Shown here piece by piece: positions 11,798-17,517 of a DNA stretch of 64,000 nt. Both the position numbers and the translations under genes were made by a program. Position 1 is the first letter of the stretch, and each line of letters begins with the position of its first letter. The DNA comes from Gemmatimonadota bacterium (lineage in GTDB: Bacteria; Gemmatimonadota; Gemmatimonadetes; Longimicrobiales; Gaopeijiaceae), in the NCBI GenBank assembly GCA_009692105.1, contig SHZS01000001.1, positions 1-64,000 of the forward strand. Direction: 5' to 3'. Under the pieces are notes generated by a model. The model did not search any database. It was not told where the DNA came from and was given only the letters and a program-made list of their open reading frames with translations.

Positions 11798-12243
11798 TTA
11801 CGCCAGCCTCAGTGGCAATGTGCGGAGCCGCTGGCCCGTAAGTGCAAACACCGCGTTCGCAACGGCCGGCGCGATCGGCGGTACGCCGGGTTCGCCGAGC
11901 CCGCCGGGGGGAGCGTTCGAGTCCATGAACTCCACGTCCACACGAGGGGCGTTGGCGAGCTGAACCATCCGGAAGTCGGGGAAGCTTCGCTGCTCGACAG
12001 CCCCGTTACGCACCGTGATCTCCTGGAAGAGCGCCGCGGACAGGCCGAAGACTATCCCCCCCTGAATCTGTGCCAAGGCCTGGTCCGGGTTCACGACGAG
12101 ACCGCAGTCGACCGCGGCGTGCACCTGGTGCACCCGAACTTCGTTCCGGTGAGCCCCACCTGCTCCCGCAGCACCCAAAGAAGGGGAGTGCCCTTATCCA
12201 CCTCGAGGGCGATCGGCCCACCGTCCAAGGTGAACTCGATCAC
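11798..12243 (-). pseudogene. Collapsed iorA-iorB remnant (molybdenum hydroxylase)
   Basis: Two unrelated gene ends are joined here. The 5' part, from GTG 12243, reads as the N-terminus of a small [2Fe-2S] isoquinoline 1-oxidoreductase subunit ('FTLDGGPIALEVDKGTPLLW', 'GLTGTKFGC'). It breaks off just where the first cluster cysteines begin and stops at 12091. From about 12142, in another frame, the sequence is the C-terminus of the large molybdopterin subunit: 'VDCGLVVNPDQALAQIQGG' and '[19 protein letters not shown]', which includes the catalytic Glu region. About 2.5 kb of coding sequence normally lies between these points. The fusion cannot make an active enzyme. A dihaem peroxidase/cytochrome, a usual electron partner, sits immediately upstream and is intact. 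Confidence 0.8.
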
Positions 12244-14042: not shown

Positions 14043-14825
14043 CTACGCGGTCAGCCGCCTCGACAGCTTGAGCCTTCGCGCCACGGCCCAAAGAAAGATG
14101 ACCAGGACCATCAGCCCCACCAATCCACAAATCTCCCTCTCGTGCCCGGCGTACGACCTGAAGCGGAGCGTCTCGACGATCAGGAGCATGGACGCAGTCA
14201 AACCCCAAGCCGCAATCGTCCCGTACTCCCGGATGACAACGCGCCGCCAGCTGAACGACATTCCCTCCAGCGCCGCGCTCAGCCGACCCAAGTTCGGGAT
14301 CCATCGCGCGACGTCGCGGCAATACTGCTCGTACGTGGCTCCAAACTTCGCGTGGAGGAAGTCCTCCTCTGCTGCAACAATCGAGTGATAGAGGAAAAGG
14401 AAAAACGACCCGGCCACGACGTACATCCATGGGTTGTTCCAGATCACCGCGAGGCCGGCGTAAACGAGGAGGTTGCCGAGGTAGAGAGGATTACGCGAGA
14501 CAGCGAAGAATCCAGCCGTCACCAGATCCTCCGCGTAAACGCGCCGTGCCCTTCCTCCTCGCACGATGTACGCGTATCCGATGACCGCGATGCGCAGCGC
14601 CTCTCCAGCGCAACCCAGAAACAGGCCGACCCCGTCTAGGACACGATCGGCTGCGTCGCTGCCAAAGGGTCTCAGGGGCCGGGTGAGGATCAGTAACGTC
14701 AGGACAACCGCGGGTGAGAGGGCGTCGCGGTATCGGAAGAAGAAATTCCCGCAGCGAAGCACGAACGACGCGGTCGTCCGTCCCGACGAGGGCCCTACGG
14801 GCGCTTGAGGGTCGAGGTCCTTCAT
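14043..14825 (-). CDS. Isoprenylcysteine carboxyl methyltransferase-like membrane protein
   Basis: Predicted 260-aa integral membrane protein of the ICMT/PEMT (phospholipid methyltransferase) superfamily. It has about six hydrophobic helices and the conserved SAM-binding signature 'GFFAVSRNPLYLGNLLVYAGL' followed by 'AAEEDFLHAKFGATYEQYCRDVARWIP'. The RHPxY-type motif appears as 'SRNPLY', and the double-Glu motif 'EEDFL' is intact. Bacterial members methylate lipids or other small hydrophobic acceptors; the substrate here is unknown. ATG 14825 was chosen because homologous-looking sequence starts there. The frame is open upstream to about 15020, but that part overlaps the next gene's tail. Confidence 0.75.
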   Translation of the reverse strand: MKDLDPQAPVGPSSGRTTASFVLRCGNFFFRYRDALSPAVVLTLLILTRPLRPFGSDAADRVLDGVGLFLGCAGEALRIAVIGYAYIVRGGRARRVYAEDLVTAGFFAVSRNPLYLGNLLVYAGLAVIWNNPWMYVVAGSFFLFLYHSIVAAEEDFLHAKFGATYEQYCRDVARWIPNLGRLSAALEGMSFSWRRVVIREYGTIAAWGLTASMLLIVETLRFRSYAGHEREICGLVGLMVLVIFLWAVARRLKLSRRLTA

Positions 14826-14895: not shown

Positions 14896-15501
14896 TCATT
14901 GCCGCCAGCGGATGCCCAGCACCAACGACACGCTCGACACCCGCTCGATGGGCTCATCGTGTCGCATGAGGAGTGCGAGGGCTCGCATCTCTTCACGCTT
15001 GACGAAAACGCGATCGCCACGGCTCCCCAGGTATGCGCTCAACGACGGTGACAGCGCGTAGTCGAGGCTCAGCCCCCCTGCCGACACCGGATATGTGTGC
15101 TGAAACGAGACCCAGGAGTCAGCGACCGCGAAGTGGTCCGCCGCCCAAATCGTGAATCCCCCACCGGCCCAAGCGCTCACCCCCCACCTCCAGGAGGGCG
15201 GGGTCAGGCACAGGTCGGCTCCCGCAGTTACTCCGACCAGACGCATGGCCGACCCCACTGCTGCGCTGCCCGGCCGATCCCCCTGCGAGGCGTCGGCAGG
15301 GAGGAACAGGGCGTCGGCGTCGAATCGAAGGTTCAGCCGGGTCGAAACACGGCGTGCCAGGCCGAGACCCTCCGCCAACCCCTCTTCGCGGATGCGGAGT
15401 TCCGTCAGATCACCCAGTGCGCGGCCACCACCGACCCGGAAATCGAGGAACCAGGGGCTCTCCCCTTGGCCAGCAAGCGGTGCCGCGCTCAGCGCGAAGG
15501 C
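14896..15501 (-). pseudogene. Outer-membrane barrel gene lacking its start
   Basis: The frame from 15501 to 14896 encodes an outer-membrane-like barrel: a partial signal-peptide tail ('LSAAPLAGQGESPWFLDFRVGGG'), then alternating strands ('AGADLCLTPPSWRWGVSAWAGGG') and a terminal strand 'SLVLGIRWRQ'. No start codon or hydrophobic signal core exists at its head. Instead the same frame runs back through one TGA (15502-15504) into the TolC-family stub. The gene has therefore lost its 5' end at a junction with that stub. An internal TTG at 15378 could start a shorter product, but without a signal peptide. Very unlikely to be functional. Confidence 0.65.
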
Positions 15502-15855
15502 TCACGTCGTAGCGGATGCGAGCGCTCCAAGCTCAGCGCTGCCGATCCGCGCACGCCGAACCCACGGGTATTCCAGCGGCTGTTCCAGGTCGATCTGATG
15601 GATGGGTGGTGACTTGGAGTAACCCAACGCGAGCGCCGGATTCGGATACTCCCGGGCTGTTCTCACGCGGGCGGCGGCGGCGGAATCGGCTACTGCGATC
15701 GCGGCTCGCGGACCTTCCTGGATGGCCGCCTGCACCGCCTCTTCGAGGGTAACGGCCTGTTTGCCACGGAGCGGAGAGGTCGTGGCGCCCGCGAGCAGGA
15801 GCCCGAGAACCCAGGGTCGCATCCATCGGGGCCCCCAATCCATTCCCAACGTCAT
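15502..15855 (-). pseudogene. Truncated TolC-family outer-membrane efflux protein (N-terminal stub)
   Basis: About 117 codons resemble the N-terminus of a CusC/CzcC-type outer-membrane factor: signal peptide ('WVLGLLLAGATTSPLRG'), 'TLEEAVQAAIQEGPRAAIA', 'TAREYPNPALALGYSKSPP' and 'DLEQPLEYPWVRRARIGSAELGA'. An intact protein has about 400-450 residues with two coiled-coil halves; here it stops after 'LASATT'. No periplasmic adaptor or RND pump gene is present nearby, although these usually follow. I infer a deletion that removed the rest of the efflux operon and the start of the next gene. Start taken as ATG 15855 after a G-rich ribosome-binding site; ATG 15843 or 15822 are possible. Confidence 0.7.
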
Positions 15856-15964: not shown

Positions 15965-16744
15965 TCACTGCGTCGTGACGCGAAATGCCACCGTGGGAGG
16001 GACCCCGGGGAAGAACGCAACACCCGAGATCGATCCCAGGACGGAGCCAGGCTTCGAAGCGTTCGCCCACCTCACTACGGTCCGGCTGACGAATGTGCCG
16101 ACCGCGGCACCGACCACAACGTCACTGGCCCAGTGGCGATCGTCGTACATGCGGGCGACCCCAACGGCCGTTGCCGCCCCGTAGAGCAAGCGCCCGACTA
16201 CCACCCTTTTTCGAGGCCAGTGAAGGTACATCTCCTCCGACGCCGCGGCCGCGAGCGCGAAGGCAAGCGCGGTGTGGCCCGAGGGGAAGGACTCATGGGT
16301 GGAATCGCTCTTCATGATGGACCCCTCGAAGAACGCTCTGGAGTTGTGGGGCATGACGAACGGGCGACGCCTGCGGATGAGCCCCTTCATGACGGTGACG
16401 ACCACGGCGGTCCCCGCTATCCCCTCCGCCGTGTGCAGACCAGCGCTTGCCAGCTCCTCCTCACCGATCGCCCGACCGATTCCATAGATCACCGTGCTTG
16501 CGAGGAGGGGACCGGCCGATCCCAGTGGTGTGATCCACCGGGCTCCCGTTCGGAGCGTCGAGCTCTCCTGCCGCGCGCCAGCCTGGATCCAATCCCGAAT
16601 CGGCTCGTCGAGGGGGATTAGCGCCACCCCGCCGAACGCGACCGCACCCAAGATCCAGCTTCGTCCGAGCGCCCCTCCCGCCCCTTCTACCGACGAGGAG
16701 CTGTCGGGGGCCTCCTGACACGCAAGCGCCACAGGCATGGCCAA
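15965..16744 (-). CDS. PAP2-family phosphatase (envelope)
   Basis: Predicted PAP2 superfamily acid phosphatase. All three catalytic motifs are present: 'KGLIRRRRP' (about 120-128), 'FPSGH' (153-157) and 'ARMYDDRHWASDV' (197-209). Such enzymes dephosphorylate lipid or undecaprenyl phosphates at the outer face of the membrane. The sequence 'LGLLLTAHLAMPVALAC' just inside and upstream of the annotated start is a good lipoprotein signal. The true start is therefore probably a non-ATG codon near 16792, overlapping or abutting the cmoA stop (16795). Only TTG 16744 and ATG 16738 are conventional choices, and they would cut the signal peptide. Confidence 0.75.
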   Translation of the reverse strand: MAMPVALACQEAPDSSSSVEGAGGALGRSWILGAVAFGGVALIPLDEPIRDWIQAGARQESSTLRTGARWITPLGSAGPLLASTVIYGIGRAIGEEELASAGLHTAEGIAGTAVVVTVMKGLIRRRRPFVMPHNSRAFFEGSIMKSDSTHESFPSGHTALAFALAAAASEEMYLHWPRKRVVVGRLLYGAATAVGVARMYDDRHWASDVVVGAAVGTFVSRTVVRWANASKPGSVLGSISGVAFFPGVPPTVAFRVTTQ

Positions 16745-16794
16745 ATGGGCCGTGAGGAGCAGCCCGAGGGTGAACCGCGACTGTCTTAGCAGGG

Positions 16795-17517
16795 CTACTT
16801 GAGGGCGATGGCCCCGCAGAAGTTATACCATCTGAAGAAGGTCTCGACCTCACGGAATCCGCAGTCATCGAGGAGCTTGGTATTCTCCTCCAGCGTATAG
16901 GGAATCAGCACGTTCTCGAGCGCTTCCCGCTTCTGTGCGATCTCCATCTCGCTGTACTTTCGTCTTCGCTTTAAGTCATAGTAATACCGGATGAAGGACC
17001 GATTCAGGACAGGGTCTGCACACAGCAGTTTCTCAACAAGGATAAGGCACCCGTTTTCGTTCAGCTGCTCGTAGATCGAGCGAACGAGCTTCTCCCGATA
17101 GATGGGTCGGATGAACTGCAGGGTGAGGCACAGAACGACCACCGAGGCGTTCTCGATCGGCACCCGCTCTCCGATGTCCGCCCTCTCCAGTCGGAACGGT
17201 CGACTCACTCCCGCTTCACGGAACTTCGCCTCACACTTTTCGAGCATTTCTGCAGAGTCGTCGACTCCGACAAATCCAACCGTGGGTGCCAGGAACGGGT
17301 CCATCGCCAAGAGGGTGTTCCCCGTGGCACAGCCGAGATCGTAGACGTTCGTTCCGGGTGCGGCCCAGTCCATGACGAGCTCGGCGAGCATCCGCTGGAT
17401 CTCTCCGTAATAGGGGACCGAGCGGCTCACCATGTCATCGAAGACGGCAACTACTTCGCTGCCAAACTCGAAGTCCTGCGGTTCGCGTGGCCGATCGAAA
17501 ACCTTGTCATCCGACAT
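16795..17517 (-). CDS. cmoA: Carboxy-S-adenosyl-L-methionine synthase
   Basis: Predicted 240-aa class I methyltransferase-fold enzyme matching CmoA (about 247 aa in Escherichia coli). CmoA converts SAM and prephenate to carboxy-SAM, which CmoB uses to modify U34 of certain tRNAs to cmo5U. Diagnostic stretches are 'DDMVSRSVPYYGEIQRML', 'VYDLGCATGNTL' (motif I), 'PIENASVVVLCLTLQFI' and 'KYSEMEIAQKREALENVLIP'. ATG 17517 begins the conserved N-terminus. No cmoB is present in this window. The following PAP2 gene is unrelated in function. Confidence 0.88.
   Translation of the reverse strand: MSDDKVFDRPREPQDFEFGSEVVAVFDDMVSRSVPYYGEIQRMLAELVMDWAAPGTNVYDLGCATGNTLLAMDPFLAPTVGFVGVDDSAEMLEKCEAKFREAGVSRPFRLERADIGERVPIENASVVVLCLTLQFIRPIYREKLVRSIYEQLNENGCLILVEKLLCADPVLNRSFIRYYYDLKRRRKYSEMEIAQKREALENVLIPYTLEENTKLLDDCGFREVETFFRWYNFCGAIALK

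Follow-up and report, generated by a model that had tools for sequence, protein, structure and literature searches.

Gene content of the locus

The window, a stretch of 64,000 nucleotides from a Gemmatimonadota draft genome (G000), was examined around positions 14896-15855, for which the preliminary description named no strand. A reading of the frames indicates that this stretch is best read on the minus strand, where all of its features lie. Followed along that strand (Table 1), an intact gene of the CmoA family precedes a gene for a PAP2 lipid phosphatase, the beginning of a TolC-type outer-membrane efflux (OEP) gene, the body of a gene for an exported barrel-like protein and, lastly, an intact gene for a membrane methyltransferase which resembles LmtA. 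The three middle elements make up a block of approximately 1.97 kb which separates the CmoA-family and LmtA-like genes, while the order and orientation of these two are kept.

Table 1. Features of the locus, with positions in the window
Feature	Position	Strand	Evidence
Intact gene for an LmtA-like membrane methyltransferase (PEMT/ICMT family), forming the downstream half of the cassette	14043..14825	-	PF04191, 1e-9
Exported barrel-like protein without its head; frame open as far as the natural stop, lacking the start codon and the beginning of the signal peptide	14896..15501	-	Homologs in G145 and G036
Junction, including the TGA at 15502-15504	15500..15516	-	TolC homology ends at about residue 109 of 112 searched; signal-peptide tail of the barrel gene lies just after the TGA
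TolC/OEP stub, CzcC/CusC-like; signal peptide and first ~90 mature residues	15505..15855	-	About 50% identity with the N-termini of intact OEPs
Gene for a PAP2 lipid phosphatase with intact catalytic motifs	15965..16792	-	PF01569, 1.8e-24; KX6RP, PSGH, RX5HX3D
Intact gene of the CmoA (carboxy-SAM synthase) family, forming the upstream half of the cassette	16795..17517	-	TIGR00740 match

The TolC stub and the headless barrel-like gene

One frame runs from 16023 to 14896, its translation reading ...MTLGMDWGPRWMRPWVLGLLLAGATTSPLRGKQAVTLEEAVQAA...EYPWVRRARIGSAELGALASATT before the internal TGA and AFALSAAPLAGQGESPWFLDFRVGGG...LVLGIRWRQ between it and the final stop. The distance from the ATG at 15855 to the TGA is 117 codons, of which codons 1 to approximately 113 have TolC homology. 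The stub aligns with the N-termini of OEPs in G151, G045, G043 and G046, all of other families of the same order (ca. 50% identity, E 8e-23 to 4e-16); the intact proteins are about 405-409 amino acids long. The alignment extends to residue 108-109 of the 112 searched, and the sequence YRLAVERAAVR, conserved directly after that point in the intact relatives, is absent from the stub, which places the break at about 15500-15516. The earlier identification of a CusC/CzcC-like N-terminus that stops after about 117 codons is borne out by this identity and by the position of the TGA. The stub resembles outer-membrane factors of the CzcC/CusC type, which belong to TolC-adaptor-RND operons, in its signal peptide and N-terminal sequence, but it ends at approximately codon 113 of about 405 and lacks the two OEP repeats as well as the barrel and the periplasmic tunnel. 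When searched alone it gave no Pfam match, its 112-117 codons falling short of the two PF02321 repeats that extend over approximately 400 residues. The stub peptide is non-functional.

Directly after the TGA, without transition sequence, the same frame continues as the tail of a signal peptide followed by an exported protein of approximately 190 residues, ending at 14896. Distant homologs occur in G145 (E=4e-6; 29% over residues 5-198) and, with a weaker match, in G036; these full-length relatives start 12-18 residues earlier and possess a normal signal peptide. The window sequence shares the signal-peptide tail, the length and the C-terminus of these relatives, which are small barrel-like exported proteins from the same order, but is without their first 12-18 residues and a start codon. 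No ATG, GTG or TTG is found in its frame before 15378, which is already past the signal-peptide tail. The preliminary description, in which a TGA was followed in frame by the signal-peptide tail and body of an unrelated, start-less barrel, therefore agrees with the frame reading and with the starts of the homologs. We use the term “barrel-like” because the label was given from the strand pattern, the signal peptide and the length of the homologs rather than from a fold; this half searched alone matched neither a Pfam nor any other named family, and its single-sequence AlphaFold model had a pLDDT of 32.

One frame will be shared across a junction with a chance of one in three, so its continuity here is uninformative. 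The G+C content is alike on the two sides (68% and 67.5%), and the stub and barrel stretch is single-copy in its own genome. An old break is not required, since the G+C of the codon positions is still of the coding type in both halves, although only weakly in the stub, and the back half remains open as far as its natural stop.

Two functional readings were rejected. A fusion protein is contradicted by the stop between the halves, by the lack of an in-frame start in the barrel half, and by the 154 genomes of the order, in which separate searches with each half revealed no intact relative, and hence no family, of fused architecture. The GTGA overlap at the stop of the stub does not provide translational coupling, as its GTG is in a different frame from the barrel half. 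The stretch is a double pseudogene scar in which two unrelated broken genes are joined, an ordinary product of gene decay that has left a fused pseudogene pair in a small draft genome. No in-frame start in the barrel half preserves the export signal, and neither intact product is predicted to be made at the joint. For annotators the scar is a warning, as such a site may be misannotated as encoding a short TolC together with a truncated barrel protein.

The CmoA and LmtA-like gene pair

The CmoA-family protein of the window scores 225.5 bits against TIGR00740, above the family cut-off of 193.3, and is 74% identical to its counterpart in G032, a genome of the same family. Arg199 of E. coli CmoA, which binds the cofactor carboxylate (PMC3663124), corresponds to its Arg197 in the alignment. 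The protein is like the CmoA carboxy-SAM synthases in score and in this residue, but its partner is a membrane methyltransferase and not CmoB, for which a PF08003 search of its own genome was negative. The best curated family for the downstream product is TIGR04571 (LmtA, the lipid A 1-phosphate methyltransferase of Leptospira; E 5.3e-24), but at 85.3 bits it lies well below the cut-off of 325 and is a relative of LmtA rather than an LmtA.

A genome_contigs scan in which the CmoA-like protein alone served as query returned 80 independent loci (L047-L126). In 74 of these an LmtA-like homolog directly follows the CmoA-like gene and shares its strand, the gap being about 50 nt or less in nearly all cases; the loci bearing the pair belong to Pseudomonadota, Omnitrophota, Rokuibacteriota, Verrucomicrobiota and others. 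The CmoA cut-off is exceeded by every member sampled (from Citrobacter, Rokuibacteriota, Alphaproteobacteria and G032), and all LmtA-like partners tested match LmtA best while scoring below its cut-off. The equivalent of Arg199 is invariant in the 82 CmoA-like sequences aligned (G000, G032 and the 80 loci), as is an Arg-Asn-Pro-x-Tyr motif in all 74 aligned partners.

Within the order a close CmoA-like gene is present only in G032 and in the genome of the window. G032 carries the pair with a gap of 18 nt (L035, 8255-9597). The scar block splits a pair which is adjacent in 74 of 80 loci and in G032. In the tree, the LmtA-like gene of the window groups with the copy in G028 (100/99 support; 62.5% protein identity) and not with the cassette copy of G032, so that contiguity of the cassette in this exact lineage is deduced rather than seen. 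G028 is a member of the same family with a genome of 2.0 Mb, and its gene, the closest relative of the window copy, stands alone on contig C9 (L036, 8652-9407) with no CmoA partner and an adjoining MFS transporter gene.

The pair is apparently widely conserved and unstudied, and no description of it was found in the open-access literature. The users of carboxy-SAM which we found there are CmoB and the phage enzyme CmoX, which employs it on DNA (PMC12783734). As a tentative proposal, which we hold to be possible and not yet probable, the pair may form a two-enzyme system in which the CmoA-family enzyme makes carboxy-SAM and the LmtA/ICMT-like enzyme carboxymethylates a lipid or lipid phosphate of the membrane, in place of tRNA modification by CmoB; here the PAP2 gene would lie within that operon together with dead efflux and barrel fragments. 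If the pair does carboxymethylate a lipid, carboxy-SAM chemistry would extend beyond tRNA (CmoB) and phage DNA (CmoX). The cassette is in our opinion a more interesting lead than the scar, and worth the time of a specialist.

Origin of the block and proposed history

The PAP2, stub and barrel sequences have G+C contents of 67-68%, equal to that of nearby genes (67%), whereas the two cassette genes are lower (57% and 62%). This favours a history in which native DNA was inserted into the cassette and a deletion then took place inside the block. That the insertion or rearrangement came first is probable also because the block splits a pair which is adjacent in nearly all of the loci scanned and in G032. 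Neither a transposase nor a clear target-site duplication could be recognised at the edges of the block, and a transposon footprint was rejected, the short repeats there being of the kind expected by chance.

In a scan for the start of the PAP2 gene, no ATG, GTG or TTG was found ahead of the signal peptide, the TTG at 16744 being situated within that peptide. With the CTG at 16792, which follows the CmoA stop by 2 nt, the signal peptide would be complete (region 16731-16800). The gene may be translated from this CTG, or may be clipped as well.

We consider it probable that the locus is a dead scar which arose in two steps, the insertion of a segment into the cassette and a deletion within that segment. 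In the first step a native segment with the PAP2 gene, a TolC-type efflux gene and the gene for a small exported barrel-like protein, and perhaps an adaptor and a pump as well, would have entered between the co-oriented CmoA and LmtA-like genes. In the second, to judge from the anatomy of the junction, a deletion reaching from approximately codon 113 of the TolC gene to the signal-peptide region of the barrel gene would have joined the halves. Translation from the ATG at 15855 would thereafter end at the TGA, with the CmoA, PAP2 and LmtA-like frames left intact. For this lineage the sequence of events is reconstructed by parsimony, from a comparison set without a congener.

An assembly chimera, in which sequence from two unrelated sites, in the genome or in the population, was joined at approximately 15500 while the real genes are intact, is unlikely. 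The draft character of the genome (61 contigs), the abrupt junction and the occurrence of two such scars within 4 kb all speak for it. Against this, the C-terminal TolC half that should then exist as an orphan was not found in the genome (1.62 Mb, 61 contigs, 92% complete), the G+C content does not change at the junction, and the co-oriented cassette genes flank it in conserved order, unlike a random join.

We regard as quite unlikely the reading of the preliminary description, a plain deletion within an efflux operon resident at the site; the cassette genes would then have come to flank it independently. Three observations agree with such a course: the TolC-adaptor-RND order in G045 and G151, the location of a PAP2 gene beyond the RND gene in G045, such that PAP2 and efflux genes do co-occur, and the grouping of the window's LmtA-like gene with the stand-alone copy of G028. 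It nevertheless requires that the CmoA and LmtA-like genes flank the scar in conserved order and orientation by chance, and it was demoted because the flanking genes are a conserved pair. What stands of the earlier deletion reading is that two broken genes have been joined; the interrupted CmoA and LmtA-like pair had been overlooked.

It is very unlikely that fragments already truncated were captured by illegitimate end joining with no deletion at the site: the main point for this is the PAP2 gene, which without a standard start near the CmoA stop would bring the 5'-clipped genes of the block to two out of three, but the PAP2 and barrel fragments reach natural stops, the stub has a natural start, and all are co-oriented, more like one segment shortened later.

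Extent of the loss

Under the two-step history, the sequences suggest a minimum loss of approximately 290 TolC codons together with some 10-18 codons of the barrel gene. The preliminary description envisaged a multi-kilobase deletion that removed an adaptor and an RND pump. A deletion joining the two genes is probable and a size of that order is plausible. Unlike the intact OEP genes of G045 and G151, which are followed by adaptor and RND genes, the stub has no adaptor or RND gene beside it in the window; the loss of these genes from this very site is plausible. Elsewhere in the genome there are three OEP genes, whose matches all begin where the domain begins; the only full-length RND gene (contig C51) lies beside one of them. 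In the operon of G045 (L030, contig C281, 2800-11328) a sensor kinase gene is located upstream and the PAP2 gene downstream, so that PAP2 and efflux genes are found together in another family of the order too.

At 1.62 Mb the genome is small, nearly all of the relatives examined having 1.8-7.5 Mb. Together with a second remnant 3 kb away, this makes general gene loss a likely background to the scar. That remnant (11798-12178, minus strand) encodes only the C-terminal ~126 residues of the large subunit of a molybdopterin oxidoreductase of the xanthine dehydrogenase type, is flanked by genes for a transporter and a cytochrome c peroxidase, and is probably the “first scar” of the preliminary description.
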